Assembly (NCBI RefSeq): GCF_023115355.1
Contig: NZ_CP096023.1
Location: 1-64,000 of the forward strand
DNA length: 64,000 nucleotides
Reading direction: 5' to 3'
DNA from: Halocatena salina
GTDB taxonomy: Archaea > Halobacteriota > Halobacteria > Halobacteriales > Haloarculaceae
This document shows, piece after piece, positions 9,135 to 52,516 of the stretch. Position 1 is the stretch's first letter, and each line of letters opens with the position of its first letter. The notes under the pieces are model-generated. The model was not told the DNA's origin, ran no database searches, and was given only the letters and a program-made list of their open reading frames with translations. The position numbers and the translations under genes are program-made.

Positions 9135-9329
9135 GAGTCGTAGCACACGCAGGTGACTGCGCACAATACCGACGGGCACGTGGCCTGTGCTGTGGGACGG
9201 AACTGCTTCGTCAGAGCCCGCTTGGCAGACAGCGGAATAGCCGTCGAGAGTGTGTCCGATGGGCAGGTCTGTCAGTGTAGTTCTATATACATTTTGTAAC
9301 CAATGTTAATATATTATTATCTAAAAGGT

Positions 9330-10220
9330 ATGGGCGTGATACGAACATCGCATATAGTAGTGGTGATGGCAGTGTTGTCCGTTGCGATTCCAGCGGGCGT
9401 CGTGGGCAGTCCTTCGACGACAAGTGACACGCTGAGTGGGACGGTCACCGAGGTCGTTGACGGCGATACAGTCGATATCGAATACGCAAACGGGACGACC
9501 GACACCGTGCGACTGTTGGGTATCGATACGCCGGAAATCTACGGTGAAAACGACCCGACGGAGTTCGAAGGCGTGCCGGATACGAGCGCGGGCGAACAGT
9601 GTCTCGCTGATGCAGGAGATGCTGCGAGTGCCTACACGAAGGATGTGCTTCAGCCGGGTGAACAGGTGACGCTTGAGCTCGACGCGGCAAGCGATGGGCG
9701 AGGAGACTACGGGCGCTTATTAGCGTACATTCACGACGATGGCCAGAACCTCAACTACGACCTCATCCAGACTGGCCATGCGCGCGTGTATGACTCAGAG
9801 TTTTCCCAGTCTGACCGGTTTTATGCCGCTGAATCGGATGCACAGGCGGCCGAACGCGGCCTGTGGCAGTGTCGGAACGCAGGGAGTGAGAGCAGCCTTT
9901 CTATCACAGAGATCCACGCCGACGCGGCTGGGAACGACAACGATAATTTAAATGATGAATACGTGGTGTTCGAGAATACAGGTACTGACACGCTTGATCT
10001 CTCGGGCTGGTCGGTATCAGACGACGCGGGCCACACCTACATGTTCCCGAGTGGGGCGTCGCTCGCGGCTGGTGGGACCGTCACGCTCCACACGGGCAGC
10101 GGCTCGGACACGGCCAGTGATCGCTACTGGGGATCCTCAAGTGCGATCTGGAATAACGGCGGTGATACCGTGACGGTCACAGACAGTGCTGGGACCGTCA
10201 TGACGAGCCAATCTTACTGA
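9330..10220 (+). CDS. Secreted thermonuclease (SNase) with lamin-tail domain
   Basis: A 296-residue exported nuclease. Residues 1-27 form a Sec signal peptide (hydrophobic stretch SHIVVVMAVLSVAIPAGVVG). The staphylococcal-nuclease domain follows: VTEVVDGDTVDIEY, DTVRLLGIDTPE (catalytic Arg and Asp), and DYGRLLAYI with the second catalytic Arg. After a cysteine-containing end of the domain (GLWQC), residues about 190-296 form a lamin-tail (LTD) beta-sandwich: ITEIHADAAGNDNDNLNDEY, LSGWSVSDDAG, FPSGASLAAGGTVTLHTGSG. The frame opens at 9303, but the ATG at 9330 gives a normal signal peptide. It would degrade DNA outside the cell for nutrition or as a barrier to uptake. Confidence 0.9.
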   Translation: MGVIRTSHIVVVMAVLSVAIPAGVVGSPSTTSDTLSGTVTEVVDGDTVDIEYANGTTDTVRLLGIDTPEIYGENDPTEFEGVPDTSAGEQCLADAGDAASAYTKDVLQPGEQVTLELDAASDGRGDYGRLLAYIHDDGQNLNYDLIQTGHARVYDSEFSQSDRFYAAESDAQAAERGLWQCRNAGSESSLSITEIHADAAGNDNDNLNDEYVVFENTGTDTLDLSGWSVSDDAGHTYMFPSGASLAAGGTVTLHTGSGSDTASDRYWGSSSAIWNNGGDTVTVTDSAGTVMTSQSY

Positions 10221-10362
10221 CGACGGCTCAACAGCAAATCCGTAGGTGTAATCATGGTTCCCCGGATGAGTTCTCATGTTGCAGATTGGGTGTCGCTGTT
10301 CTAGTTGGTCGGTTGTCAACTTCTCAAAAATTCTAGAAACAGCAGTGAGACGTGCTATTCAC

Positions 10363-10893
10363 TTAGAGTTCTTCAAAGTCGTCGAATGTTAGTTGGCACT
10401 CGTCCTGGTGTCCGCTGTCAATCTGTGGGTGGGGGAGATGATCAGTTGTAGACCATTCGTCGAAGGTTCCCTGATCCTCATCGGCTTTAGGGCGCGAGTG
10501 CTCACGCCTGTGCCTTGCGCGACTATCACAGGGAAGGAGATTTTCGGGGCGGTTATCCCACTTGTGGGTGTTTTTGTGATGAACTACTGCCTCGGCTACA
10601 GCGTCAATCCCATATTCAGCTACCGCTACGAGCCTGTGTACGAGGATAGTGTGCCCATCAACGAGCCAACAGTCATATCCATCGGGTCTTGTGGTATAGT
10701 AGGCGGGGGAGTCAAGTGGGTCAAGAATGCCAAACCGTCGTAGGTAGTTCCTCACGGTGGTCTCAGAACAGTCCAATTCCTCGGCGATATCTGGGATAGT
10801 TTTCTCTTGTGTCTCATACAGGTCATAAAGCAGCATTCGGTCTCGATAGGGTTCGGTGAGATCTCCTGCCAGCGTTGTCTGCTGGTTCTCCAT
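10363..10893 (-). CDS. Helix-turn-helix protein with HNH endonuclease domain
   Basis: A 176-residue protein. Residues about 20-55 form a helix-turn-helix (TIPDIAEELDCSETTVRNYL). Residues about 70-135 form an HNH nuclease domain with HR at ILVHRLVAVAEYG, the centre VVHHKNTHKWDNRPENLLP and RHRREH at the end. The layout resembles phage and plasmid HNH proteins and free-standing homing endonucleases. The C-terminal 40 residues are acidic and probably disordered. It is divergent from the next gene across an AT-rich 116-base spacer that should hold both promoters. Confidence 0.8.
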   Translation of the reverse strand: MENQQTTLAGDLTEPYRDRMLLYDLYETQEKTIPDIAEELDCSETTVRNYLRRFGILDPLDSPAYYTTRPDGYDCWLVDGHTILVHRLVAVAEYGIDAVAEAVVHHKNTHKWDNRPENLLPCDSRARHRREHSRPKADEDQGTFDEWSTTDHLPHPQIDSGHQDECQLTFDDFEEL

Positions 10894-11009
10894 CTACTAT
10901 TTTTATTTATTATGCTGATATAGAATAAATATTTTGTATATGTGGATGATCGAATCTCGACGGAAGTACTGGCCAGTATATGGTGGTGGGGAGAATATGT
11001 AGAGATGGA

Positions 11010-11438
11010 ATGAGTAGTTTACCAGCGGACGACCGAGAGGACGAATTGAACGACGAGGACATCCCAACGGTGGTAATTCCTGGGTTTGATCCCGAGGATG
11101 AAGCCGATACCGACACACTGTTCGAAGGCCATCCGTTCCTTGAGCTTCTCACGCCGAACTCAAGAGCTAAAATACTCTTGGCGATGCTCCGTGTACGAGG
11201 CGATAAACTCCGAGAAGCCGATATTTGCGACGCAGCGCGGATTAGTCACGACACGTGGAACAACCACAAGGACATTTTAGCTGACAAATATGGGGTTATC
11301 GAACATGTTGTGAATATTGAAAATTCGCCGCTGTACACCATCCCGGAAGACAGCGAACTTGCTGATCTCCTTGAAAAAGTCATTGGAACTGCTGCTCAGG
11401 AGGAACGCGAGTGGCTCATTGAGCAACGCGACAAGTAG
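11010..11438 (+). CDS. Winged-helix DNA-binding protein of replicon type
   Basis: A 142-residue protein with an acidic N-terminus (about 1-45) and a helix-turn-helix core: SRAKILLAMLRVRGDKLREA, DICDAARISHDTWNNHKDIL, YGVIEHV and PLYTIPEDSELADLLEKVIG. Such proteins are common on haloarchaeal plasmids and proviruses. Whether it controls copy number, the divergent HNH gene or something else cannot be said. The frame opens at 10980, but MSSLPADDREDEL at 11010 is the better start. IS6-type debris begins 14 bases after its stop. Confidence 0.7.
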   Translation: MSSLPADDREDELNDEDIPTVVIPGFDPEDEADTDTLFEGHPFLELLTPNSRAKILLAMLRVRGDKLREADICDAARISHDTWNNHKDILADKYGVIEHVVNIENSPLYTIPEDSELADLLEKVIGTAAQEEREWLIEQRDK

Positions 11439-11451
11439 CCCAATCTGGAAC

Positions 11452-11637
11452 TGTCTAGATAATTTCCTAGGTCGGTGTTCGTCTATCAAGCGCTTGATGT
11501 GGTCGTTGAAATTGTAGTAATCAACGAACAGCGCAAGCCACTGGCGGACGCTCAGCCGACTCCCCACCCACGAATTGTGAAAGCGGTTGATGTGCATTGG
11601 GAGGGTGTAAAACCACTTCTCGATTAGGTTTCGATCG
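11452..11637 (+). repeat. Direct repeat, copy 1 (IS6-type transposase 3' part)
   Basis: This 186-base stretch recurs at 20100-20285 in the same orientation. Both copies begin TGTCTAGATAA and end TTTCGATCG. The last 73 bases are identical by eye and the outer 40 bases are more diverged. The shared segment encodes the transposase C-terminus on the minus strand. Confidence 0.9.
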
Positions 11638-12112
11638 GCGTAGCCAACCCGACCGCACAATCTTCATCGAGCGAGGGCAGTCCAATAACCGAACTGATCG
11701 ACCAGAAACACTGTGTCTTCGCAGTCGTGTTTTTCGACAACTCTGTGAAGGAACGTAACCGCCGAACCGGTTCGTGTCGCTCAAACAGTTGTCCGTCGAG
11801 GAGCAACTTTGTGTTGATATCTACTGCAGCGTCCAACTAAGACCATTTACCATTGATTTTGACAGCACTTTTGTCGACGGCGGCCCGCAACGGCTGCGCT
11901 GCGGCGGATTCGAAACGCTATCAGTCAGTCGATGTACTCACTGGAAAATCGTCTGATGAGGGCGTTCAACACCTAATTCAGCGAGAGTCGAAGCTGTTTA
12001 GCTAAGTGAACAGTCGGTCGCGTAAAGGTGGACGGCAAACGCTCCCAACATTCTTCTAAATCTATTGCAAAGCACTCGCTGAGCAGGTCTGCGAGCGTTC
12101 TAACCACATCAC
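11452..12112 (-). pseudogene. Decayed IS6-family transposase
   Basis: Read in shifting frames on the minus strand, the segment gives the whole order of a haloarchaeal IS6-type DDE transposase: LADLLSECFAIDLEECWE near 12110, AVDKSAVKINGKWS with the first Asp near 11870, AVTFLHRVVEKHDCEDTVFL near 11730, and DRNLIEKWFYTLPMHINRFH followed by NSWVGSRLSVRQWLALFVDY near 11640-11530. At least three frame changes and several stops separate these parts, so it is dead. A related 186-base piece occurs at 20100-20285. Confidence 0.75.
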
Positions 12113-12129
12113 TCAACGACCTATTCACT

Positions 12130-12522
12130 TCTCAAACTGATCCAACTGGGCGGTGCCAACGCCACTATTATTCTTGAAGTGCGAAAAGCTATGAGAACCG
12201 CGTGGCTGCCACCGCATCAACCGAGCTATGCACTGACTCCAAAGGTATGAGCATCAACTCTCGTGATCCGCCCTACTTGTCTTCATACCATCTTGTTTTA
12301 AGAGGGACAGTCACCGCGTCCCTGTATCTTATTATTCTTGAAATAGACATCATGTTCACCATCGTCTTGACACTATGGCGTTCTGTGAGTTAGCACCAGT
12401 CGTCTCACTCATCTGCTTGCGTTCGGCACGGGATTACCGGATCCACAACCTATCAGCACCTGATTGATCCAAAGAGCTCGACTCACGATGCCACATAAAT
12501 AGTGCATTCATCGTTGGGCCTA
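12130..12522. other. Gap without a supported gene beside IS debris
   Basis: This stretch follows the 5' end of the decayed IS6-type transposase. No frame longer than about 60 codons reads like protein. It may hold the lost outer end of the IS and older fragments, none recognised. Confidence 0.4.
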
Positions 12523-13179
12523 CTAGACACTATCGAGAAGTTCGCCCATCGCTTCTGCATCGAGTTCAGCCTGTGATAACCATTGTTCTAGATCTGTGCG
12601 GTTGTAGAGCGTAACATTCGAATTTTCGGCGGCCTCTTTTGCGCCTTCAGTATACCGAGATGTTGTAACGACTGCAGGGATATCGATCGCAAATTCTGAT
12701 TGTCGAACGACCGATCCCGTATGAATCTCCTGCACAGCACTGTTTCCAACTGGATTATTGATGTTGTATGCCTTCGCTTGGATCCCAACAGTGGTGGCTT
12801 CACGAACCCACACAACGTCGACCCCTTGGTCCCCGGAACCTTCTGTAACTGTGGCATCACCCTCCACTCGGCGGAGAATCTCAGCAAGAATATGCTCAAA
12901 TTCATAGCCAGATACCAACTCGAGGTCGTTGAGATCCACGTATCGGGGGGCTCGCGACGTTTCGGAGAATGAAACGCTCTGATACTCAGCTAGTCGCTCG
13001 CGCTCACGTCGAAGTATTTTGAGAACCCTGTCCTGCGGGATCTCCCGCTCCCAGACCTGTTCAAGTAACTGCGACGCTTGGACATGTTCGGGAATATCAT
13101 GGCTTTCTGCTCTTTCAATAAACTCAGCGAGCGAATCAGCGTCTTCCGCCCATGTCTGAACGTCTGTGTGTCTACTCAT
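12523..13179 (-). CDS. Mrr-like restriction endonuclease (PD-(D/E)XK)
   Basis: The product has 218 residues. Residues about 88-200 form an Mrr-type catalytic domain: GYEFEHILAEILRR with the conserved Glu, then EGSGDQGVDVVW with D121 and VGIQAKAYN with Q134 and K136 as the active-site D...QxK. Residues 1-80 are helical and not recognised; they could bind DNA or a partner. Mrr enzymes cut modified or foreign DNA. The start overlaps the stop of the upstream Cys-rich gene by four bases (ATGA), so it is the last gene of the helicase / Cys-repeat / endonuclease operon and is probably translated by coupling. Confidence 0.88.
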   Translation of the reverse strand: MSRHTDVQTWAEDADSLAEFIERAESHDIPEHVQASQLLEQVWEREIPQDRVLKILRRERERLAEYQSVSFSETSRAPRYVDLNDLELVSGYEFEHILAEILRRVEGDATVTEGSGDQGVDVVWVREATTVGIQAKAYNINNPVGNSAVQEIHTGSVVRQSEFAIDIPAVVTTSRYTEGAKEAAENSNVTLYNRTDLEQWLSQAELDAEAMGELLDSV

Positions 13180-15206
13180 TTGTACGTCCCCATGAGCTGT
13201 TTCAGCATCCCCGCACTATATCGATCAACTTCTTGTTCTGCTTGCACATCATATATGACGACCTTGTTACGTCCCAGCAATTTCTTGCCAAGGATTACCA
13301 TATACGCATCATTACTACCGGCCTCCACGGAGCGGAAGTCCGATGCGATTTCAGTCGGTATCTGGGTTTGGGCAACGTCACCGAGTGATCGGCATGCTGT
13401 GCATTGACCGTCGTTCAACACGGGTGTACTGTATATAATCTCGCAGGTGTCACACGTGTCATGGTGATTCTGACACAGATGTCCAGTGCCAAGTGGTCTG
13501 GAGACACGGTGGTTGGAGCACACGGTCTCTTCGCCGACCGAACACTGGGTTGCATGAGTCTGACAGAACGTTTTCTCCTCACTGTCTTGTCCCTCAGCAC
13601 ATGTCACGCAGACCTCGGTATGTTCTTCACAGAGCGTCTCGCCACACATGGTGCAGATAGTACTGTGGTCGGAACAAATCAGGTCATCACAGGCTGAACA
13701 CCGCTCAATATCTGTTTCACATCGAGGTGATTCACAAACGCTACATCGCCGTGTATGCGCATCACAGTGGTGATCATCACAGTCTGAGCAGTGCGTGAGA
13801 TGAGAATCACAATGGAACGTACCGCCTGTAGCGCACTCTTCACCACAGAGATGACAGGTTATTGATTCACAACTATCGCAGAACTCGCTGTGATCAGCGC
13901 AGACTGCTGTTCCACATGAGGCACACGTCTGTAGACACTCCTGACACACATCCTCCCAACAGACCACACACGGTGTACAGTGTTCAGTTCCATCACAGTC
14001 TTCACAGTACGTCAACCCACAGCTCCGGCAACTTGTAGCACACGGATCGCCGATCAAGTGTCCATTTGTACACAGCTTTGGAAGAACCCCTTCAGTTAGA
14101 TCTTGCGAACAGACGCTACAATCCAAGCCTCGGAAGGCATCTGTAGCTGGGAGGTAGGAGAGTTCAACGGTCGCAGCAGTATGGTTGGAGCTGAGTTCCA
14201 ATGTCAGGATTCCCCGAACGTACGCTACCTCTGTCACACCTATGAGTGATACATCAACATCAATCTCGTTCCTATCGATAACCTCATCAATTTCTGTCCT
14301 CTCTTCGGCATTCAGTTCTTCTTTCTTTTCTTCTATCTTTCTCTGCAGTTGGGTCAATTCCTGCTCTGCCTCTCTTCGGTTTGTGATGTATTTGCGGCGG
14401 GTGCTGTCCTTACGGGCTTTACGACGCTTGTTCTCCCATTTGTGGATCTCTTGGCGCTGTTCCGTTAGTTGCTGATCGAGTTCGCTTCGACGCTGATCAT
14501 ACCAATCTGTAATTTCCTGAATCCGTTCACTGGCGCTATCATCTGCTTCCTCTTTCAACTCAGAGATAATTGGGCGAGACCGATCGATCACAGTTTGCTG
14601 GGCTTCTTCGAAGGCCTGTTGTACCTGTGTGTCCGAAACGTTGCGGGGTGGATGCTCGTTATTTTGTTGAAGAAGCTGTGGGAGATGAGATACAAGCCGT
14701 TTCGTTAATTCTGGCAGTCTCGCCTGTGTTACTGGATCAACAGTTACGGAAAACATCTCCTCATTGTGGAACGACGAGGGGGTTTCGAATTGTACCCAAA
14801 AATGAAATGCCAGAGCAACGTCGGATGTGCGTTCGCTGAAGTCAGTAATCTCCACCGTCAGATCTGACTCCTGAAGCACGGTGGGCGGATTTACTTGGAG
14901 AGTGTCCTCTGTTAATCGAAGTCGACCGATACTCCCCGGTTGCTGTACAAGATTTAGTAGGGTAGAGAATACTGTTGTTCCCGGCTGGACAAGAAGGTCA
15001 CCAGATCCCAGTTCACGATCAGCAGCATCAAATACCAACGTTCCGTGGTCACGATCAAGTTGTCGCGAGAGTTCGCCTGGGAAAGTGACCTCCCACTTAG
15101 CACTATTTGACCGATCGATCTCGGCTCCGTATTCCTCCAGGACAGATTTGGTGAAGCGCTTGATGTTAACGCTGTTTAGAATGGAGGTGTCAACTTCAGA
15201 TTCCAT
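13176..15206 (-). CDS. Coiled-coil protein with tandem 15-residue Cys/His zinc repeats
   Basis: A 676-residue protein not recognised as any named family. Residues 1-185 look like a beta-rich domain; 195-310 form a long charged coiled coil (for example SELDQQLTEQRQEIHKWENK); 315-360 are beta-like. Residues 363-605 hold 44 cysteines in tandem repeats of the form C-x2-C-x4-C-x2-H-x4, period 15, such as CSACDDLICSDHSTI and CTMCGETLCEEHTEV. The end (about 612-676) is again beta-like. The repeats recall B-box or treble-clef zinc fingers and would make a zinc-laced rod. The gene lies 57 bases after the helicase gene and overlaps the endonuclease gene, so it is the central part of a three-gene system. 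Role unknown; an adaptor or sensor joining helicase and nuclease is my guess. Confidence 0.9.
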   Translation of the reverse strand: MESEVDTSILNSVNIKRFTKSVLEEYGAEIDRSNSAKWEVTFPGELSRQLDRDHGTLVFDAADRELGSGDLLVQPGTTVFSTLLNLVQQPGSIGRLRLTEDTLQVNPPTVLQESDLTVEITDFSERTSDVALAFHFWVQFETPSSFHNEEMFSVTVDPVTQARLPELTKRLVSHLPQLLQQNNEHPPRNVSDTQVQQAFEEAQQTVIDRSRPIISELKEEADDSASERIQEITDWYDQRRSELDQQLTEQRQEIHKWENKRRKARKDSTRRKYITNRREAEQELTQLQRKIEEKKEELNAEERTEIDEVIDRNEIDVDVSLIGVTEVAYVRGILTLELSSNHTAATVELSYLPATDAFRGLDCSVCSQDLTEGVLPKLCTNGHLIGDPCATSCRSCGLTYCEDCDGTEHCTPCVVCWEDVCQECLQTCASCGTAVCADHSEFCDSCESITCHLCGEECATGGTFHCDSHLTHCSDCDDHHCDAHTRRCSVCESPRCETDIERCSACDDLICSDHSTICTMCGETLCEEHTEVCVTCAEGQDSEEKTFCQTHATQCSVGEETVCSNHRVSRPLGTGHLCQNHHDTCDTCEIIYSTPVLNDGQCTACRSLGDVAQTQIPTEIASDFRSVEAGSNDAYMVILGKKLLGRNKVVIYDVQAEQEVDRYSAGMLKQLMGTYK

Positions 15207-15263
15207 GGTGACCTATACAGTATAGCTGTCTATGATATGCCGTGTTACTATTCTGAGTCGGAT

Positions 15264-17051
15264 TCATGCTTGGCCTTCTCCAGTCTCGAAGCCCTCAAAG
15301 ACTTCCTCATTGAACCGCTGTGCTTTCTTTGCAGATCTCATATCTCCTTCCAGATCAACAGACATCTCCTCAAAATTGTTCTCTAATTCCCGTTCAGAAT
15401 CCGCCTCTATCATCTGTTGGAGCACCTCCTGTTCGAACTGGCCGGTCGACTGCTCTCGCTCCGAAAGAATTTCCTTCAGTCCACCGACGGTCTGATGGAA
15501 GACATCGATCTTCCCATACAACTTCTCAAGGACATAGTCTTCAATCGTTCCTTCCAGCGCTAGATTGTATACGTAAACGTCGCGGTCTTGACCGATCCTG
15601 TCGATTCGACCGATGCGCTGTTCGACGCTCATCGGATTCCACGGGAGGTCATAGTTCACGATTACATTACAAAACTGGATGTTTCTTCCCTCACTAATTG
15701 AGTCGGTGGTGACGAGGACCCCGCCCCGCTCTCTGAAATGCTGGATTTGTTGGTCTTTGTCCGCGCTCGAAAGCGATCCGCTGACCGTATGAATCGGGAT
15801 CTCGTCTTGTCGATCGTCGGCCCGTAGTGCGTCCACGATCGCATCTTGGGTGGCGTGGAATTGCGTGAAGACGATCGCCCGGCCAGTCTCCATCCGTTCA
15901 TTGACGCCTTCAATGATATTCAGGAGCTTTTCCTGCTTTGTCGTTCGGCCGATTGCTCTCGCCTGTTTTGCGACTTTGAGAAGTTCTTCACGCTCTTGCC
16001 CAACAACATCACGCCCGTCACCGTTGAGCCATTTCTCGACGGTACTGAGGACAGCCCACGGTGAACTCACCACTTCTTTTTGGAGCATTAACATGACGAG
16101 GTGTCGTCCATCCTGCATCGAATAATGGCTCTTAACGTACTCTGTGACGGCTTCGTACAGCTTTTGCTCTTGAGTATTTGGCTCGAATGTTTTTGTCCTA
16201 ACCTGTCGGTCAGTGAAGTCGATCGCGGTGTCTCCACGTTTGTGACGGATCATTACTGACCGAAGTTGCCGATTCAGCTCATCAGCGTTTAGTACTCCAC
16301 TATCATCGTGATCAGGGACATAGCGCCGTTCAAATTCAGATTCCGTTCCAAAGAGCCCTGGACGGATAAGATTGATAATATTGTATAGATCCGTGACGTC
16401 GTTTTGAACAGGTGTGGCTGTCGCAAAGAAGGCGTATTGATAGTCGATATCTGCGACGAAGTCGTATCGATTAGTCCCGCTGTTCCGTAGATAATGGGCT
16501 TCGTCGACAATTAGGGCGTCCCAGTCACGTGCGTAGATTTCCTCGGCATATCGATCTCGTTTGGCCGTATCAATACTGGCAATGATTTTGTCGTAGGCAT
16601 CGAAGCCAGCAAAGGTATCATCATAATTGCAGGCAAAGTCCAGACCGAACTTGTCGGCCATCTCCTTCTGCCATTGGGTAGCTAGCTGTGCCGGAGTCAG
16701 GATTAAGAACGTATCATGGGCATCCCGAAAGACCATCTCTTTGAGGACCATTCCCACTTCGATCGTCTTTCCAAGTCCGACCTCATCAGCAAACAACGCT
16801 TTTCCGTCCATCTGAAAGAGCGCCCGATGCGCCGCATCCAACTGATGCTCTAATAGTTGGATCGTATCCGTTATCTCTTCGATGGATTGGAGTTCTTGTT
16901 GGCTTTGGGCGATCGACAGCCGGTTTGCTTCGATATTGAGGAGATGTTGGGATAGATCCGACCCTTCCCTGGTTGTAATTTCATCAAGCAGAGGCGGGGA
17001 ATCTTCCAACTCGAAATGAACATCAACAAGTGATTCATCCTCTGTCGACAT
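15264..17051 (-). CDS. SNF2/RapA-type superfamily 2 helicase
   Basis: The product has 595 residues and both helicase lobes. Motif I is DEVGLGKTIE at 89-98, motif II DEAH at 183-186, motif III ATATP near 210, motif V TTDSISEGRNIQ and motif VI QRIGRIDRIGQ. The DEVGLGKT and RIGRIDRIGQ forms are those of SNF2/RapA-type ATPases that move along double-stranded DNA. Residues 1-60 are acidic and precede motif Q. The C-terminus (about 535-595) is helical and charged. It is the first gene of a three-gene operon with a Cys-repeat protein and an Mrr-like nuclease, which suggests that it moves or loads the nuclease. DISARM and BREX also use helicases of this type but with different partners. Confidence 0.9.
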   Translation of the reverse strand: MSTEDESLVDVHFELEDSPPLLDEITTREGSDLSQHLLNIEANRLSIAQSQQELQSIEEITDTIQLLEHQLDAAHRALFQMDGKALFADEVGLGKTIEVGMVLKEMVFRDAHDTFLILTPAQLATQWQKEMADKFGLDFACNYDDTFAGFDAYDKIIASIDTAKRDRYAEEIYARDWDALIVDEAHYLRNSGTNRYDFVADIDYQYAFFATATPVQNDVTDLYNIINLIRPGLFGTESEFERRYVPDHDDSGVLNADELNRQLRSVMIRHKRGDTAIDFTDRQVRTKTFEPNTQEQKLYEAVTEYVKSHYSMQDGRHLVMLMLQKEVVSSPWAVLSTVEKWLNGDGRDVVGQEREELLKVAKQARAIGRTTKQEKLLNIIEGVNERMETGRAIVFTQFHATQDAIVDALRADDRQDEIPIHTVSGSLSSADKDQQIQHFRERGGVLVTTDSISEGRNIQFCNVIVNYDLPWNPMSVEQRIGRIDRIGQDRDVYVYNLALEGTIEDYVLEKLYGKIDVFHQTVGGLKEILSEREQSTGQFEQEVLQQMIEADSERELENNFEEMSVDLEGDMRSAKKAQRFNEEVFEGFETGEGQA

Positions 17052-17904: not shown

Positions 17905-19302
17905 TTAGGCGAAGCGTTTCAGCGAGGCTTTGGAGATGGCTCTGAACCGAGTATCCTCCACCACAATATCAAGTATCACTTCAGGATTGTGGAGTAATCG
18001 ATGAGAATTATGGCGGCCGCCGCCTTTTCCCATATTTACCTCTTTAGTTTCGATGACCTGACTGAGCTGCATCTCATCGAGAATATCCCGGAACCGCCGT
18101 ATCCCGATCGTGTCCATATCTACTGCGTTAGTGATCTGCTGGTACGCATCGTAGAGTTCGCCTGTGATGATGTAATCGTCGCGCGAGTAGAGTGACTTAG
18201 CTGCGATCGAGAGACATGCCGCTTTCATCTGCGTCGGGGTTCCCTGAAGGAAGTCGCGGAATCGATCCTTCTCAAGTGTGTCTTGAGATCGTCGCACGTG
18301 GTGTTCCTCGACTACGCCCGATCCTTCACGATCAGCAAGCTCTCCTGCTGTCCTGAACAATCGCATTGCCTTTCGTGCGTCTCCGTGCTCCTGGGCAGAG
18401 AACGCCGCGACGAGTGGAATAACGTCATCTGTGAGAACCCCATCGCGGAACGCGTCCTCCCGCCCTCGAAGAATATCTTGGATTTGAGTCGCGTTGTATG
18501 GGTCGAAGTTGAGTTCTACGGCTTGGAAGGCACTTTTGGTTCGAGGGTTCAGCTCGTCGAAATAGTTGATCTGATTGCTTATTGCGATGATACCAATTTG
18601 GCATGACGTATCATTCGACTCGACGGCCTTCGCGAGACTCATCAGAACGTGGTCACTTCTGAGAAGGTCGACTTCGTCAAGGATGATGATAACTGAATCG
18701 TAGTGAGCAAGGATCTGCCAGAGCCGCTTATAGAACTTGTCTGTCGGAAGCCCAGTATCGGGCATTTTCACGATGTCTTCAGCTTCGTCATAGATACTTT
18801 CGTCGTTCAGCTGTTGCCCAATTGTCGAGATGACTTGGACTTCGGTTGAGGACTTTGAGCAGTCAAGATACGTATGACCCATTCGGACATCATCGACTGA
18901 CGCATTGACAGCTCGGCGGGTAACGTATCGGGAAACGAGCGATTTTCCCGTTCCTGTCTTACCGGTAATTGAGATGTGGTTTGGTGCGCCACCATAGACT
19001 GCATCGTTCAGACAGCTACTGATAGTTGAGATGTAATCATCTCGTCCGACAATTCGATTGCCATCGGGTACCCAACCGACGCGGACCATCTCCTTATTCC
19101 GGAAAATCCCCGTCCGTTGGGAGAAGAGTGGGTCGTCAACCTCGAATTGCTGGCCATTCTCGTCGCTTGATTGTGATTTTTCGGTCTCATCCAGACTCCC
19201 CTTCGGTTCCGACGTTTGACCACGAAATTGTGCGTTTTGACCGTCTGAAGCACGAAAATCCTGATCTCGACTTTCATCGGAAGTCGAGGTGCTGTCTGAC
19301 AT
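17905..19302 (-). CDS. cdc6: Orc1/Cdc6-family replication initiator
   Basis: A 465-residue AAA+ initiator that binds origin recognition boxes and loads the replicative helicase. The first 60 residues are polar and disordered. The P-loop is GKTGTGKS at 114-121, Walker B IIILDEVDLL around 205-214, sensor 1 IGIIAISNQ and sensor 2 region GDARKAMRL. The last 80 residues form the winged helix that grips the origin (YDAYQQITNAVDMDTIGIRR, VNMGKGGGRH). A repeat-rich AT-rich region lies directly upstream, the usual gene-origin arrangement in haloarchaea. It is likely the initiator of this replicon. Confidence 0.95.
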   Translation of the reverse strand: MSDSTSTSDESRDQDFRASDGQNAQFRGQTSEPKGSLDETEKSQSSDENGQQFEVDDPLFSQRTGIFRNKEMVRVGWVPDGNRIVGRDDYISTISSCLNDAVYGGAPNHISITGKTGTGKSLVSRYVTRRAVNASVDDVRMGHTYLDCSKSSTEVQVISTIGQQLNDESIYDEAEDIVKMPDTGLPTDKFYKRLWQILAHYDSVIIILDEVDLLRSDHVLMSLAKAVESNDTSCQIGIIAISNQINYFDELNPRTKSAFQAVELNFDPYNATQIQDILRGREDAFRDGVLTDDVIPLVAAFSAQEHGDARKAMRLFRTAGELADREGSGVVEEHHVRRSQDTLEKDRFRDFLQGTPTQMKAACLSIAAKSLYSRDDYIITGELYDAYQQITNAVDMDTIGIRRFRDILDEMQLSQVIETKEVNMGKGGGRHNSHRLLHNPEVILDIVVEDTRFRAISKASLKRFA

Positions 19303-24432: not shown

Positions 24433-25338
24433 TTACAGTTTCATGAGCTGTGCTGCCAGCGTTCGCAGTTCGGTCTCCGCGTTGATCGCTGCCAGCCAGC
24501 GGTCGGGAAGCGCAGTTGCCCCGAAGCGGGCTCCGGCGATGGCTCCGGTGACAGCACCGATGGTATCCGTATCACCACCACGATTCACACTTCGGACGAT
24601 TGCCGTCTCAACATCTCCTGTATGGAGGCCGTCGTAGAGTGCCGTCTGGAGGGTATGAATCACGTAGCCTGACGTCGGCAGGGACGCTCGCTCATCTCCG
24701 CGAGCAATGGGTTCGAGTGCCGTAAGGAGTTCCTCAGGCGCCTCGGGTTCGACGTAGTTTAGGGCTGTCCTGAGTGGTTCTGCATCGCCTCGCATCACCG
24801 CTGCAATGGTGAGGTTCACCACTGCACATCCATAGGTACAGCGTGGATCAGCGTGTGTGATCTCAGATGACTGCCGACTCACCTGACCGAGCATGGATGG
24901 ATCATCCGGATACGCGACTGCAAGCGGTGGGCAGCGCATCACGCTCCCATTGCCAGCATTGCTTCCTTCAGCACTGGCCTCCCACACGTCACGGCCAGCC
25001 GTTTCCCATGTCACGCCTTGTTTTAGCTTCTGCAGCGAACGGCGTGTCATGATCCCGATGTCAAACGGCTCCGTGTCATACCACTCGACGAAGCGATCTG
25101 CGATGTCTGCGGGATCGAACTCCGAACGATCAGCTACACTCCGAGCGAGACAGCGCGCCTGAGCCGTGTCGTCTGTGACTGTCCCGGCTGGCTGTCTCCA
25201 CGTCCCGTGGCCGACCATCTCCCGGAGGGTGCCGTGCTCTGCTTCGATCTCGGCGGCTGATTTGAACTCAACGGGCCGCCCGAGGGCGTCACCACACGCG
25301 AGCCCGAGGAGGACGCCCTCGGCATGATCTGTGTCCAT
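24433..25338 (-). CDS. ADP-ribosylglycohydrolase (DraG/ARH type)
   Basis: A 301-residue hydrolase that removes ADP-ribose from proteins, nucleic acids or small molecules. The metal-binding motifs are present: TVTDDTAQA near the N-terminus, SNAGNGSVMRCPPLA in the middle, and NRGGDTDTIGAVTGAIAG near the end. The glycine-rich start GVLLGLACGDALGRPVEF is typical. MDTDHAEG at 25338 is preferred over the ATG at 25350. It stands downstream of mcrBC on the same strand but 277 bases past the last remnant. A role in reversing ADP-ribosylation, perhaps by a phage or an abortive system, is possible but unproven. Confidence 0.9.
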   Translation of the reverse strand: MDTDHAEGVLLGLACGDALGRPVEFKSAAEIEAEHGTLREMVGHGTWRQPAGTVTDDTAQARCLARSVADRSEFDPADIADRFVEWYDTEPFDIGIMTRRSLQKLKQGVTWETAGRDVWEASAEGSNAGNGSVMRCPPLAVAYPDDPSMLGQVSRQSSEITHADPRCTYGCAVVNLTIAAVMRGDAEPLRTALNYVEPEAPEELLTALEPIARGDERASLPTSGYVIHTLQTALYDGLHTGDVETAIVRSVNRGGDTDTIGAVTGAIAGARFGATALPDRWLAAINAETELRTLAAQLMKL

Positions 25339-25615
25339 ACATCGCTGCACACTGCTATGTGTGAAAAAGATTAGTTAATATGCATTAGATATAATGGATT
25401 GGGATACGAGATAAGAATAGATTCAGATTGGCACCGTGTGCTTCATGGGGACGTTCTCGTTTACCATTTCGAACATCAAATACCTCTGTAAGCCGCTTCA
25501 ATTACCGGTATCGGTCGCTATTCAACATGGTAACTGGTGTGATTGCTGTACCTGACGTTATCTAGGGATTCAATATAGTTGTGTGGAGGACAGCTCTTTT
25601 CCGCTCCCTAGAGTT

Positions 25616-25783: not shown

Positions 25784-27055
25784 TCAACAGAGCTGTCGAA
25801 TCCGGTGGTTGAGGCAACGCTCCAGACGGGTCCCTAGCGCCTCAGCGGTTGCGGCTGGTTTCCGAGTCGGCAATTCGACGACAGCTAGTTCTCCTGCGTT
25901 CTGAACGGCATAGTTAGTTGTAAGGGATCCTTCTTGACTGGGATATATAAGCAATCCGGATACATCATCCGTGAGTTGATACGCGACCATCTGATAGATG
26001 TCTGCGTTGTCGACTGACTCCGGTGTCTTCCACTTTGCGTCTGCAACAAACTGAACGGTCTCATACTGGTCACGAACGAGGATGTCTGGCCGCATCGTAA
26101 TCGATGGCGATCCACCAGTGACGAGTCCCCGTCTCGTTGCCTGTGGTTCGATGGACCAATCGGTACGTGACTCCAATGCTCCGCGAACTGCCCGTTCTAC
26201 AACGTCTTCGAAGACACGATTCATGTCTATTAATAGTGAATATGAGTCCCGGTTGCCGCGCTCTAATCGATCGACGTGAGCGTTATCGAGAAGTAGCTCA
26301 GTGAGTCGCAAGATAGCTGTATAGTGCTCACTGAGGCGAGTGAGTTCGATGTCGCGTACCTCTTGGACACGAACCGATCGAAGCGTCACACGACGGCGAA
26401 TGCGCGTCTGATATCGCTGTAGTGACTGGCCGAGGTCTTCGTCGCTGACGAGCCCCAAGAGAACGGATACCGTATACAGAATTGCCTGATTTGCTGGCGT
26501 TTCATACGTGAGTTCATCATACGAACATTCAAACGTCGTTGCACAGGGACCCTGTCGCTGTAGCTGCTGTTGCAGATCGAGACGCCCGCGGAGATAGTCC
26601 TCGGTATTGCTGGAGCGTCGATACGCTTGTTGGAGGCCACGCTTGATGAGCTGCTCCAGCTCGGCGAGGTAGAGTGCAGCGAGGATGTCGATGAATGTGG
26701 CTCCGGTTTGGATCGATGTTTCCTGTTTGATCGTCGTTGCTTCGGTTCCGTGCGCATACTGAAGGAGTGACAGCAGATTGTCTCCTGCTGCTTTGGGACG
26801 GATCTGAATCGTCGGCCCATCTGGCAGTGAGACAATGCCAACGTACTGTGAGGTACGAAGCATCGGTTGCCTCTCGTGGTCAAAGCTCACTGTCATTTGT
26901 TGCGATGACAGTGTCTGTTCGATGAATTCCCGGTCTCGCTCTGACAATTGAGTATCCAACTGTGTTTCGTCGTGTTCTGTGAGCGTGATGGTCGGGACTG
27001 GTGCGGACGGCGACTGGGAACGACCTACTGTCTGTTCGTGCAATGCCATACTCAC
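25784..27055 (-). CDS. mcrC: McrC-family nuclease subunit
   Basis: A 423-residue protein with the two-part build of McrC: an N-terminal beta-rich region (TSQYVGIVSLPDGPTIQIRP) that contacts the McrB ring, and a C-terminal PD-(D/E)XK nuclease with ITMRPDILVRD and VQFVADAKWK supplying the active D...DxK. McrBC cuts DNA between modified cytosines. The gene overlaps the mcrB stop by four bases (ATGA). A protein-like segment follows its stop in the same frame. Confidence 0.93.
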   Translation of the reverse strand: MSMALHEQTVGRSQSPSAPVPTITLTEHDETQLDTQLSERDREFIEQTLSSQQMTVSFDHERQPMLRTSQYVGIVSLPDGPTIQIRPKAAGDNLLSLLQYAHGTEATTIKQETSIQTGATFIDILAALYLAELEQLIKRGLQQAYRRSSNTEDYLRGRLDLQQQLQRQGPCATTFECSYDELTYETPANQAILYTVSVLLGLVSDEDLGQSLQRYQTRIRRRVTLRSVRVQEVRDIELTRLSEHYTAILRLTELLLDNAHVDRLERGNRDSYSLLIDMNRVFEDVVERAVRGALESRTDWSIEPQATRRGLVTGGSPSITMRPDILVRDQYETVQFVADAKWKTPESVDNADIYQMVAYQLTDDVSGLLIYPSQEGSLTTNYAVQNAGELAVVELPTRKPAATAEALGTRLERCLNHRIRQLC

Positions 27056-29178
27056 TCCGTAGATACGGACCGATCAGTGCCAGCAACACCGTTGTCGCGG
27101 AGTTGGTAGAGGTTTCGGTCATTGAATTGCGGATGGCACCAGTGGTCTGGTTGTCCGACAGTGGTCTCGTCTCCGTTCGTTAGTTCATCGAAAATCTGTT
27201 GTGCCGCCCCCGATAGCGAATATAAGTCGCCATCATTTAGCCATCGAATGTCGCCCGACTCAGCGGTGGCATCGATTACCTCACTCTGCCAAAACGCAGC
27301 ATCACGCTCAGCCACTGCTCGCTCTATGTCTGTATCTGAGACCGTTGTCCCGTTCCGCAGCTGTTCACGGTTAAATTCGAGGATATCTCCTGCTTCGAGG
27401 ACACCATTTTCAGACAGGATATCTACTGTCTGTCGTGATGTCGTCTCTGGTTCAATATTGAGGAGTGATGCGAGAGCTGTGTGAAGATCATCTGCGGTGA
27501 AGTCTTTGATCTGCTTGGTACGCCAATCGACGAGGCGATCATCAGTCCCTGCGAGGAGATCCTGTTCGATACGCTCGAATTGTCCGAAGTAATATTCCTC
27601 TAGGAGGGGGAGGATTTCGTACTTCCAGGTATCGACAAGCGCATCTTCGTCGATCTGTCCATCATCCCGTGTGCACCCAAAGAGATACGAATGCCCGATC
27701 TGCTTTCCCTTGCCAAGGTCCGGCAGGCTCCGAATCCGCTCGTTGAGTTCCTCAAGAGCAAGGAGTGAGAGGGCGAGCAGCGCACGCAGAGACGCACCTG
27801 ACTCAGCTGTGGCGTGCACATCGCGTTTGTGATCAAAGTTGTACTCTTCATAGAGTGCGTCGTAGTCCGGTGGGAAATTGATGAATCGGAACCGGCGACG
27901 AAGAGCTGCGTCAACGAGTGCGATAGAGCGATCTGCAGTATTCATCGTGCCGATGACGAAGAGATTCGGCGGCACGACGAACGACTCTCCCGAATGAGCA
28001 AGCTGTACCTGAACTTCGTTTGCTTCATCACGACGTTTATCGGCTTCTAGTTGTGTAATGGTTTCACCGAAGATTTGCGCCAGATTGCCTCGATTAATCT
28101 CATCGATAATCAGCACGAATCGCGGCGGGGTCTCTTTTTTGGAGACCATCTCGTAGGCTTCTTGTGCAGCTTCACAGACACGCTTGAACCGCCCTGGGCT
28201 GATGTCGTAGTTGACGGTGCCGCTGTCAGTGGCCTCAGCGGACAGTCCTTCGACGAAATCTTCATAGGAGAATGAAGGATGGAATGTGACGATATGGACC
28301 TGTGACATTGATGTTGTGACTGGAGGACCTTCACTCACCCACCACTCAGCGAATTGGTTCGCTGAATACGTTTTTCCGGTTCCTGGTGGGCCATAGAACA
28401 CGACCTGCTTTGTCGTTTCAAGCTGTCGTGCGATGTCGTCTGCTCGTTCAGGCTTTTCACTGGACTCCTCTGAGCCCCGTGTAAGGTCCCCAGTCTCAGC
28501 GTATCGAATCACACACTCAGGTACATCATCACGGGCAAATCCGAGAAGTGGAAAGAGTACATCGGCAAACGTTTCGGCTATAATATCGATAAATGACGTG
28601 TTAAAGATTCCATCGGCTTCGCGATAGCGTCGTTTTGCGGCAAACCGCGTGATACCGTTGGCAGCCAACCGGTCTATATCATCTCCAGTAAACTCGTCTA
28701 CTGGCATCGAGTAGCTGTTTCCATATTTCGGCTGATAACTGACGGTAGCATCGTCGAACTGTGAAAGAATCGTGAGAAAGGTCTCTGATTGTTCACCAAT
28801 ATTCGTTTTTAGCGTCTCACGTTGGTCAGCTACCGGGGTCGCATCACCCGCCGTGCCTGCATTGAAACGCACATCAACAAAGGGTCCGTCATCGTCTTCC
28901 CCAATAAGGAATTCTGGATGAACGAGTTCGTGTGGGCCTCGATCATCACCTGCTCGACCGTACATCGTCCACATGTACTCGCGATAGTCTTTTTCCGTGT
29001 GTTGTGGCCGGATGCGTGATGCTGTTGGGTCACTACTGATGTTTTGGAACTGTTTTGGTGCCCGATTATATACGTCTTCGCCGATTTGCTGTAGATGACG
29101 CCGTATCGACTGTAAATTCGATTTTGTCGTTCCGAGCTGCTCGAAATCATCACGTGTAAAATGTGTTGTGTCTGCCAT
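27052..29178 (-). CDS. mcrB: McrB-family GTPase/AAA+ restriction subunit
   Basis: A 708-residue protein. The C-terminal AAA+ motor has Walker A GPPGTGKTYSA, Walker B FVLIIDEINRGN and the family mark IGTMNTADRS, all diagnostic of McrB. The N-terminal 280 residues should read modified DNA. They are not like the DUF3578 domain of E. coli McrB that I know, so the modification recognised may differ. The frame opens at 29337, but MADTTHFTRDDFEQL at 29178 is the likely start. The hexamer moves DNA to McrC for cutting. The frame of mcrC begins inside its stop. Confidence 0.93.
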   Translation of the reverse strand: MADTTHFTRDDFEQLGTTKSNLQSIRRHLQQIGEDVYNRAPKQFQNISSDPTASRIRPQHTEKDYREYMWTMYGRAGDDRGPHELVHPEFLIGEDDDGPFVDVRFNAGTAGDATPVADQRETLKTNIGEQSETFLTILSQFDDATVSYQPKYGNSYSMPVDEFTGDDIDRLAANGITRFAAKRRYREADGIFNTSFIDIIAETFADVLFPLLGFARDDVPECVIRYAETGDLTRGSEESSEKPERADDIARQLETTKQVVFYGPPGTGKTYSANQFAEWWVSEGPPVTTSMSQVHIVTFHPSFSYEDFVEGLSAEATDSGTVNYDISPGRFKRVCEAAQEAYEMVSKKETPPRFVLIIDEINRGNLAQIFGETITQLEADKRRDEANEVQVQLAHSGESFVVPPNLFVIGTMNTADRSIALVDAALRRRFRFINFPPDYDALYEEYNFDHKRDVHATAESGASLRALLALSLLALEELNERIRSLPDLGKGKQIGHSYLFGCTRDDGQIDEDALVDTWKYEILPLLEEYYFGQFERIEQDLLAGTDDRLVDWRTKQIKDFTADDLHTALASLLNIEPETTSRQTVDILSENGVLEAGDILEFNREQLRNGTTVSDTDIERAVAERDAAFWQSEVIDATAESGDIRWLNDGDLYSLSGAAQQIFDELTNGDETTVGQPDHWCHPQFNDRNLYQLRDNGVAGTDRSVSTE

Positions 29179-29789
29179 ACATCTGAGTTCGGCCATTTCT
29201 ATTAGAATGTTTGGGTATCTGAGCCCGTTGTGATCTATTCTCTCCTCCCGATAGGCATCGTTATTTTTGTAGTGGGGAAATTCCATCCCTGTGTAAAGTT
29301 TCCATCTATCAGACGGTGAGTAGCGTCGCCAGATCACATCCGGTCAGTTCCGAGAGTATGGTTTTGTATATTGGCTCATACTTTGTAGGCGTTGGATGCA
29401 GAGTGTTCGACTTTACCGTTTCACCCCGTTAGCTATGCATTTGCGCATAGGTATGGTCTAGCTCAACTGTTTGTAGAGAGAACAGGTCGCCTACAGAAAG
29501 GTATGATATCATGTCGAGCAATCGTGTGCTCACGTAATACACTACTAAAGATCTATCACAATTCAAGCACAGCATTAATATGAGCCATCGGGTTCTGTTC
29601 TTGGCAGCAGTCGATCTATCAGCTGGACTTTCGCTATCATCCTGATCTCCTCTAACCAATAATATATTACTTAATATATAAATATAGTGTATAGAGTGTG
29701 TCTTGTACTTCCGACCACAGTGTTCCAGATAGTCTGATAAGAGGACTCACTGTCTGCAATATAAGAAATAATCGATTTCAACGACCACG
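29179..29789. other. Gap upstream of mcrB and downstream of addA
   Basis: No gene is supported. The stretch 29640-29790 is AT-rich and lies after the addA stop; the part nearest 29179 should contain the mcrB promoter. A 63-codon frame at 29392 is not protein-like. Confidence 0.45.
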
Positions 29790-50836: not shown

Positions 50837-52516
50837 CTATGCGTTCGCCTGTTCTACACAAGAATCGAGGAACCCTTCAATCTCCTCGATCGATTTTCCG
50901 TTCTCATACATCCACTCGATTATCTGCTTTCCGTGTTCTATCTTCTTGTAACAGCCTGAATTCTCGACCCCGGGAGGCATATTCTGCTCCGCCACCATCT
51001 GGTTAACCTTCCCCTCAACGTCACAGAATTCAGTAATGTCGTCTCTAGAAACAGAAATGGATAACACTTCGCCGATCCCGTCAGGATAGAAGTAGTTCTC
51101 TATCTCTCTGTGTTCCAGAACATGACAGTCAATCCCAGCGCTTTCAGCATGCTCTCTCAATTGCGCCACTTTTGGCTTAAGTTCATCTTCTCTGTCTTTC
51201 CTGTCACTATCCAACAGGAACGCGAAGTGGCGGTTTATCTTCTTTAATTTTCTTGGCTTACAATGACTGATATTACCTGTTCCACCGAGATGTTGGATGG
51301 TGATGTTATGTTCTTGCCAGTTATCGTAATACGAATCGGCAATTGTTTCGAGGATCTTTACGTCGGATGGGCCCTCTACGTAGATTACGAAGTCACTCTG
51401 GAGGATGTCGCTGTTCCGTGCCCCGATCTCATCGACTGCTTTGAAGGCATCCTCCTCAATACGCTCGAAGGTCGTGATACCGGAATCACGACGGGTGATG
51501 TACATCTCTGCGGCCGTTCGGTTATCGATAAACACCTGTGAGTGCGTGGTTATTACTACCTGGCCACCGCTATCAGCGATACTTCGCAATGCGTCCAGCA
51601 TCTTCCGTTCGGCTGCTGGATGGAGAAAGTTACCTGGCTCCTCGAAAAGCAGCATATACCCCTCACCTACTTGAAGGTCGACATAGGCTTGCATCATTGA
51701 TAGAAGAAGGAGACTTCCCACACCTGACCCACGCTCATGGACGTCTATACTCTCGGAGAGATGCTTGTCCTCGAGATGAATTTTCGGAGAGATTGCCTTG
51801 CTGATTTGGATACTTCCCGGCCTCATATTCACCTTTTCAACGTCGGCTAGATGTGCCTGCATGTACTCGGTCAACCGCTCCCCAATACCTTCTGAAGTCT
51901 CTTCGAGTGAATGTTTAAGCTCCTCGATTTGTTGATCAATTTCGTCGTGGAGTCCACCGCCTTTTAGAACTGGCATGAGGAGCTTGTTCAGAAAAGTACC
52001 ACCCTTCAGCTTTGTCTCCTCGTTCACATCACGTTCAGCGAAAATCGGGAGTGGCTCTGGGAAATACTCCCAGATGAAGTTCCGTGATTTCGCTTTGTAG
52101 AGTTCTTCTCCATCAACGACGACTGCTCCCTTAGCCATTTTTTCGCCATTGACGTAGGTTTCGGCTTTAGGCGTCGTTCCATCCCGTCGCGTGAACTCCT
52201 TTTCAATTGTAAATGTCTCATTCACATCGGGGAGGTAATCTTCGGTCAGTACATCTTCAAGGTCTGTGGGGACTTCTGCAAGTTTCGCAATGAATGAAAT
52301 TGACTCAGCTTCGCACTTGTGGAAGTGTTCGTTCTCGGGTTTACCACCATCCAGGAAGATAGAAAGTGCCTCAAGGAAAGATGATTTGCCAGCATCGTTT
52401 TTCCCGATGAAAGTCGTTATATCACCGATGTTGATTGGGCCTGAATCCTGAATTGGTTTGTAATTTTTGACCTCGAATGTGTCAATCGTGATCATTGCCA
52501 TTTGGAATTTCGACAT
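50837..52516 (-). CDS. OLD-family ATPase with TOPRIM nuclease domain
   Basis: A 559-residue protein. The ABC/SMC-type ATPase has Walker A GKNDAGKSS at 38-46, a signature-like region (GSGVGSLLLLSMMQAY), Walker B LLFEEPGNFLHP and switch ITTHSQVF. The C-terminal TOPRIM domain has FVIYVEGPSDVKILE and FAFLLDSDRKD. This is the OLD layout, also used by GajA of Gabija and by retron and PARIS effectors. It is read antisense to BREX, tail-to-tail with pglX and divergent from pglZ, so it looks like a guest. No UvrD-type GajB partner is beside it. MITIDTFEVKNYKP at 52495 is another possible start. Confidence 0.88.
   Translation of the reverse strand: MSKFQMAMITIDTFEVKNYKPIQDSGPINIGDITTFIGKNDAGKSSFLEALSIFLDGGKPENEHFHKCEAESISFIAKLAEVPTDLEDVLTEDYLPDVNETFTIEKEFTRRDGTTPKAETYVNGEKMAKGAVVVDGEELYKAKSRNFIWEYFPEPLPIFAERDVNEETKLKGGTFLNKLLMPVLKGGGLHDEIDQQIEELKHSLEETSEGIGERLTEYMQAHLADVEKVNMRPGSIQISKAISPKIHLEDKHLSESIDVHERGSGVGSLLLLSMMQAYVDLQVGEGYMLLFEEPGNFLHPAAERKMLDALRSIADSGGQVVITTHSQVFIDNRTAAEMYITRRDSGITTFERIEEDAFKAVDEIGARNSDILQSDFVIYVEGPSDVKILETIADSYYDNWQEHNITIQHLGGTGNISHCKPRKLKKINRHFAFLLDSDRKDREDELKPKVAQLREHAESAGIDCHVLEHREIENYFYPDGIGEVLSISVSRDDITEFCDVEGKVNQMVAEQNMPPGVENSGCYKKIEHGKQIIEWMYENGKSIEEIEGFLDSCVEQANA

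Follow-up and report, generated by a model that had tools for sequence, protein, structure and literature searches.

The operon and its surroundings

The window examined here is a stretch of 64,000 nucleotides from the haloarchaeon Halocatena salina (NZ_CP096023.1, positions 1 to 64,000). It carries three minus-strand open reading frames, which lie exactly where the initial annotation had placed them. A gap of 57 bases separates the SNF2 gene from that of the middle protein (MID), and the latter overlaps the Mrr gene by four bases. The features of the locus are as follows.

15264-17051, minus strand: SNF2/Swi2 ATPase gene, 595 aa, with SNF2-rel_dom and Helicase_C (Pfam)
13176-15206, minus strand: MID gene, 676 aa, apparently a detached helicase C-terminal half, then a zinc-unit array, then a small beta domain
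12523-13179, minus strand: Mrr-type PD-(D/E)XK endonuclease gene, 218 aa, with Mrr_cat (Pfam)
17905-19302, minus strand: Orc1/Cdc6 replication initiator gene (TIGR02928, 360 bits), upstream of the operon and part of its setting only
about 11447-12158, strand not given: degraded IS6-family insertion sequence (blastn), downstream of the operon and not part of the module

The motifs DEVGLGKT, RIGRIDRIGQ, GVD and QAK reported for this locus were all found, and DEAH as well. In Pfam, the SNF2 protein matched SNF2-rel_dom at 4.1e-30 and Helicase_C at 2.7e-22, and its helicase motifs are invariant across 13 aligned homologues. The Mrr protein scored 68.8 bits against Mrr_cat (cut-off 21; 5.6e-19). 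Its active-site motif is intact, with GVD (D121) at 12817-12819 and QAK (residues 134-136) at 12772-12780, so that the protein has both the Mrr_cat domain and the D...(Q/E)xK motif by which we recognized Mrr-family PD-(D/E)XK nucleases.

The neighbourhood also agreed largely with the initial annotation. The suspected nearby origin is marked by the Orc1/Cdc6 gene, and McrBC is indeed encoded close by (25784-29337). Of the supposed position between IS fragments only the downstream half held: the IS6-family remnant was covered over 66% with 73% nucleotide identity to IS6 copies in haloarchaeal plasmids, but no IS-like match was found on the upstream flank. The window contains a dense defence island consisting of McrBC, a UvrD-helicase/PDDEXK pair, BREX with BrxHII, an OLD-family gene and a TerB/SngA-like gene. 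The BREX block (36754-58038) encodes BrxA, two BrxC, BrxB, PglX and BrxHII, and is interrupted by the OLD-family gene (50837-52516). At the edge of this island, positions 58722-61175 encode an 817-aa protein with TM2, TerB_N and TerB_C domains (PADLOC SngA, 305 bits). Beyond the IS6 remnant, at 9303-10220, a staphylococcal-nuclease-like domain is joined to a lamin-tail domain.

A helicase divided over two genes, judged from sequence profiles

MID had been described as a coiled-coil protein with tandem Cys/His repeats, and we did find a predicted coiled coil, 44 Cys residues and about 13 repeat units. Its parts, listed from the N-terminus, are:

14871-15206, minus strand: residues 1-112, alpha/beta region, located where BrxHII/RapA has its degenerate REase-like domain, behind the SNF2 core (hhalign, secondary structure)
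14142-14870, minus strand: residues 113-355, beta strands with an inserted long two-helix coiled coil, as described for the last BrxHII/RapA domain (PMC12839542)
14271-14633, minus strand: residues 192-312, predicted coiled coil
13389-14126, minus strand: residues 361-606, array of about 13 Cys/His units, putatively zinc-binding from the Cys/His pattern
13179-13376, minus strand: residues 611-676, conserved small beta domain (AF2 strands 626-664, alignment), which occurs only in array-bearing MIDs

No Pfam or NCBIfam family matched MID above its cut-off, and PADLOC gave no convincing match; weak PADLOC links to PbeC or DndD (E 0.005-0.007) were dismissed as coiled-coil similarity. In a PDB sequence search with the MID profile, the sole matches were to coiled coils and zinc fingers, none of them better than E 0.009.

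The relationship became visible when both proteins were compared with BrxHII. In BLASTP, SNF2 aligned to residues 85-625 of the window's own BrxHII (E=9e-45); its closest solved structures are those of RapA. A profile of MID residues 1-190, from which the coiled coil was left out, was run against 645 other open reading frames. The two BrxHII proteins of the genome ranked at the top, matched at their C-terminal region (45 bits for the second BrxHII and 33 for that of the window, with the best decoy at 23). Residues 1-190 were aligned by hhalign to BrxHII 699-843. In a profile-profile comparison, MID 1-360 matched BrxHII 699-921 with a score of 80.7 and 96% probability (reversed control, 29). 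These profiles, at about 16-19% identity, indicate homology between the N-terminal ~360 residues of MID and the C-terminal half of BrxHII/RapA-type helicases. Since SNF2 covers BrxHII 85-625 and the MID N-domain 699-921, the parts are collinear with one BrxHII; on this alignment, SNF2 and MID are one BrxHII/RapA-type helicase divided over two genes. The second BrxHII-like helicase, on another contig of the same genome (L116, 277430-280333), is 69% identical to the window BrxHII, and no other single sequence matches the MID N-domain better.

A 2026 survey (PMC12839542) divides the C-terminal region of BrxHII/RapA into a degenerate REase-like domain and, after it, an alpha+beta domain into which a long coiled coil is inserted. 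The AF2-predicted order of secondary structure in MID fits this description, at an only moderate model confidence (pLDDT 69 and 62); for residues 1-112 the predicted order is a-b-b-(a)-b-a-b, at low confidence. With these moderate-confidence models, neither Foldseek (run twice) nor VIA-align returned a RapA match, the lists being filled by coiled coils and other weak matches. The view that no named system has this middle protein was thus correct insofar as no Pfam, PADLOC or NCBIfam model covers MID, but its N-terminal half appears to be the detached C-terminal half of a BrxHII/RapA-type helicase. The literature searched, supplements and subscription papers being outside its scope, contained no account of a BrxHII-type helicase in split form and none of a haloarchaeal defence protein with a zinc array; the words 'split', 'haloarchaea' and 'Mrr' do not occur in the main text of PMC12839542.

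Distribution, subtypes and the zinc array

The sample comprised 292 haloarchaeal genomes, one per species, and four plasmid records added further loci. MID homologues were present in 54 of the 292 genomes, and in neither of the two congeners sampled. We compared 64 loci, namely 63 and the window; the Halorhabdus tiamatea locus is present twice and was counted once, one locus is truncated at a contig end, and in two the SNF2 gene is incomplete. In 64 of 64, the MID homologue directly follows or overlaps a SNF2 gene of one subfamily. A reverse search with SNF2 over the 292 genomes returned the same loci, with about 550-1320 bits for near-complete proteins; the next SNF2 family, fused proteins of 1021-1176 aa, reached only about 200 bits. 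The SNF2-MID pair is therefore obligate as far as sampled, and the arrangement is far beyond chance, as it recurs in every homologous locus. The earlier description of a coherent operon among defence genes is supported, and the operon is conserved.

Whole genomes covered the window's phylum, and bacteria were covered through plasmid and phage records. In the whole-phylum sample the pair is confined to haloarchaea; other classes of the phylum yielded only short Cys-rich matches in the array region and no MID N-domain. A viral origin was rejected, the MID alignment having no relatives in IMG/VR and none in phage records. In one plasmid, pSVX82-3 of Haloferax lucentense (NZ_CP104744.1; L031), a 1245-aa zinc-array gene at 9974-13711 is missing from the PLSDB gene table, which is incomplete and may differ from the original record; three 'hypothetical proteins' are called inside it on the opposite strand. 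The MID family is thus partly invisible in public annotation.

Clustering of neighbour genes gave three subtypes, S, A and B. In the 50 S loci, SNF2 is accompanied by a MID of about 385-450 aa that ends in one zinc ribbon and lacks the array. A DUF499 ATPase and/or a DUF1156 DNA methyltransferase is encoded within about 8 kb in 44 of the 50; for two of the remaining six, the stretch itself is truncated. S therefore resembles Hma or 'BREX-Related' systems, which combine a DUF499 ATPase, a DUF1156 N6-methyltransferase and a Swi2/Snf2 helicase (PMC8565338, PMC12839542). The S-locus proteins are distant from the curated models (136 of 1000 bits for DUF1156_antiphage, 64 of 1200 for DUF499_antiphage). 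MID can no longer be regarded as wholly new, its closest relatives occurring in these methyltransferase-bearing DUF499/DUF1156 (Hma-like, BREX-Related) loci. In one S-type locus (L059, 11256-12212), an Mrr gene with an intact GVD...QVK lies between the gene of the DUF1156 methyltransferase and that of SNF2; here Mrr and helicase were paired independently.

Subtype A consists of the window and three more loci in the sample, and was also seen in Halobellus rufus and as a decayed Haloquadratum copy; Haloarcula sebkhae is among the species with an A-type operon. It encodes a MID of 675-676 aa and an Mrr of about 218 aa, with no other conserved neighbour, and GVD...QAK is intact in every A copy examined. 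The reported lack of a methyltransferase was borne out: among A-locus neighbours, the motif [DNS]PP[YFW] was matched a single time, by SPPF in an ORF of the window. Genes beside other A copies include AbiE and candidates for defence functions. ADP-ribosylglycohydrolase genes were found near A-type loci in two genera (window, 24433-25350; L037, 1694-3532), and one is also present in a B locus (L031, 15743-16651). In the decayed locus, from a Haloquadratum walsbyi J07HQW1 MAG (L124, 9052-10537), a 181-aa array fragment is all that was called of MID; the 217-aa Mrr next to it is intact, and SNF2 was not found on this stretch.

In the 10 B loci, MID measures 1030-1245 aa (862 aa in the disrupted L046 copy). 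Downstream of MID, a 298-aa protein is encoded as well as an Mrr-like one, whose length is 310-385 aa (551 aa in L046); these two, a divergent PbeA-like helicase gene (150 bits) and a ~286-aa protein occur in 10/10. Two B-type proteins (L032, 7218-8066 and 14301-15197), present in 10/10 B loci, have no Pfam, PADLOC or NCBIfam match and seem to share a repeated beta-rich 'WP..Y.G' segment. None of the B copies matches GVD...QAK; the nine that were aligned retain the Asp and have lost QxK. From this motif loss, DNA cutting by the B-type Mrr-like protein is unlikely, and cleavage is not a constant trait of the lineage. The expectation that helicase and nuclease keep the middle protein company thus held throughout for the helicase, and for Mrr downstream of 14/14 array forms, but Mrr is as a rule absent from the 50 short forms. 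A and S occur in the same genome twice, one pair on the same contig, and B and S are found together in other genomes, which suggests that co-occurring subtypes are not redundant.

In the SNF2 tree, A (100/100) and B (100/99) are sisters (100/100) on a long branch. A+B is nested within S with a support of 89/92 that depends on long-branched outgroups; the methyltransferase-bearing S arrangement is therefore probably ancestral. Between the Halobellus and Haloarcula A copies, dN/dS values of 0.025 for SNF2, 0.12 for MID and 0.09 for Mrr show purifying selection on all three A genes; within MID, the ratio was higher in the array (0.16) than in the N-domain (0.08).

The array unit has the strict form C-x2-C-x4-C-x2-[HD]-x3, with a 15-residue period and about 13 units in A. 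Ligands and units were counted with regular expressions; by a relaxed count that allows overlaps, B arrays have about three times as many units as A. No Pfam repeat family matched the array, even in its 1000-residue forms. Because the short S forms also have the first CxxC (C363, C366) and C389, in their single ribbon, the array probably grew from the terminal zinc ribbon of an S-type MID. In one B copy (L043, 9615-10293), a five-copy 135-bp tandem repeat with 71% matches lies inside the array. Each copy encodes 45 residues, i.e., three units, a pattern that points to recent array growth by three-unit blocks. Between A copies of different genera (window pairs), identity at non-Cys/His positions was 41% in the array and 76% in the MID N-domain; among A copies, the array values span 41-49%. 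With its fixed ligands and free-running other positions, the array looks like a recognition surface; it could alternatively bind DNA or serve only as a scaffold.

Named systems and candidate explanations

Among named systems, the operon is closest in helicase class and domain order to BREX-Related/Hma, whose DUF499 and DUF1156 genes the S relatives keep. The BrxHII-like C-terminal domains typical of that helicase are present, spread over two polypeptides (HmaA, 175 bits), and in type-1 BR the helicase is likewise paired with a PD-(D/E)XK nuclease. Here, however, the helicase comprises two genes, a zinc array is added, and the nuclease is a separate Mrr. Membership in Hma was rejected, as neither the methyltransferase nor the DUF499 ATPase occurs in the window operon or, to a distance of about ±8 kb, in the remaining A loci. 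BrxHII/RapA share the SNF2 core followed by the region homologous to the MID N-domain with its coiled-coil insert, but are one polypeptide without a zinc array, and the BREX partner genes lie outside the window operon. The operon is not part of BREX either: it contains none of BrxA, BrxB, BrxC, PglX and PglZ, the window's BREX is a separate block, and elsewhere the A operon occurs without BREX.

ZorD of Zorya type I likewise combines an SNF2 helicase with an Mrr-like nuclease, and its model matches both SNF2 and Mrr. ZorD, however, is a single protein that works with ZorA, ZorB and ZorC, whereas two separate genes are present here. Zorya was rejected, as the ZorD equivalog scored 90.6 against a cut-off of 1500; neighbour clustering revealed no ZorA or ZorB among conserved neighbours of A loci. 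DrmD of DISARM is the best-scoring named helicase family for SNF2, but at 264.5 bits it stays below its cut-off of 610. DrmA, DrmB, DrmC and DrmM are absent from the operon, and no DISARM partner (DrmA, DrmB, DrmC or methyltransferase) is a conserved A neighbour besides the three genes. B shares a divergent PbeA-like helicase gene with PbeABCD. Its gene set (SNF2, array-MID, an Mrr-like protein without QxK and two novel proteins) nevertheless differs, with no PbeB, PbeC, PbeD or Dnd among conserved B neighbours. PbeABCD in haloarchaea was reported, from work with Natrinema sp. CJ7-F and virus SNJ1, to block viral replication without cutting DNA (PMC6459918), which a later analysis disputes (PMC10853773). 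Neither the split of the helicase nor the zinc array nor a lineage without methyltransferase appears to have been described in the literature searched.

We consider it fairly probable that the operon is a restriction-like antiviral module from the BREX-Related (DUF499/Hma) class, with a split translocase, an array that recognizes the invader and an Mrr that cuts; by analogy, it may work like the restriction arm of BREX-Related systems. A BrxHII/RapA-type DNA translocase would be reassembled from two polypeptides, in a complex of SNF2 with the MID N-terminal half. In S ancestors, the split helicase would act with the DUF499 ATPase and the DUF1156 methyltransferase. On the A+B branch, the single ribbon would have become a tandem zinc array, the Mrr gene would have joined, and the methyltransferase and ATPase would have been lost. 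In subtype A, the array would recognize a feature of the invader, either a viral protein or an unusual DNA state, and thereby license translocation by SNF2/MID. Mrr, the start of whose gene overlaps the end of that for MID, would be recruited through MID and cut the DNA.

Since A has no accompanying methyltransferase, discrimination in it must come from the array, from a preference of Mrr for modified DNA, or from the state of the DNA, e.g., stalled replication. Array-based recognition is the most likely of these, and its chief rival is a modification-dependent, type IV-like restriction in which helicase and Mrr attack foreign-modified DNA and the array is a mere scaffold. The intact motif of the Mrr-family nuclease, the lack of methyltransferases among A-type neighbours and the nearby McrBC are in line with this rival. 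However, Pfam recognized no modified-base reader domain (such as SRA or EVE) in the three proteins, and substitutions at the non-ligand positions of the array accumulate at about twice the rate seen in the rest of MID, for which a passive scaffold would have no need. We regard a type IV-like mode as unlikely.

A housekeeping role, in which SNF2 and MID recycle RNA polymerase or clear stalled complexes as RapA-like proteins while Mrr trims damaged DNA, would agree with the RapA structures closest to SNF2 and with the matching domain order of RapA (PMC12839542). We judge it improbable in view of the patchy distribution described above, the frequent location on plasmids or secondary replicons, the tie of S forms to DUF499/DUF1156 genes, and a RapA equivalog score of 170 against 576 bits, which also excluded SNF2 as RapA itself. 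Orc1/Cdc6 genes lie near 9 of the 64 loci, including the window, as one would expect of a replicon-competition or plasmid-maintenance module for an Orc1-bearing replicon. Most loci, however, have no origin gene nearby, and several S and B copies reside on chromosome-sized contigs of 2.9-4.0 Mb, making such a module quite improbable. Very improbable is a decaying, non-functional BREX-Related remnant: the Haloquadratum MAG with its broken MID beside an intact Mrr and the disrupted L046 copy show that decay occurs, but the three window ORFs are intact and dN/dS between genera is well below 1 for all three genes.

The fairly probable reading, an antiviral module of BREX-Related descent, can be extended tentatively. 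A and B may be a methyltransferase-free offshoot of BREX-Related systems in which self and non-self are told apart no longer by DNA methylation but by a fast-evolving array of variable length, made of 15-residue zinc units and grafted onto a detached helicase domain. This would be an expandable archaeal invader sensor with two output arms, Mrr cleavage in A and a non-cleaving or PbeA-like one in B.

The findings give a major defence helicase a defined split form, comprising three linked subtypes. They also assign a family to Cys-rich 'hypothetical proteins' of haloarchaeal defence islands, for some of which no gene is called at all. Should the array be a sensor, the lineage would show methylation-guided restriction changing to protein-based or structure-based recognition. 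As members of the series S, B and A are co-resident in some genomes, this change is testable in one host.
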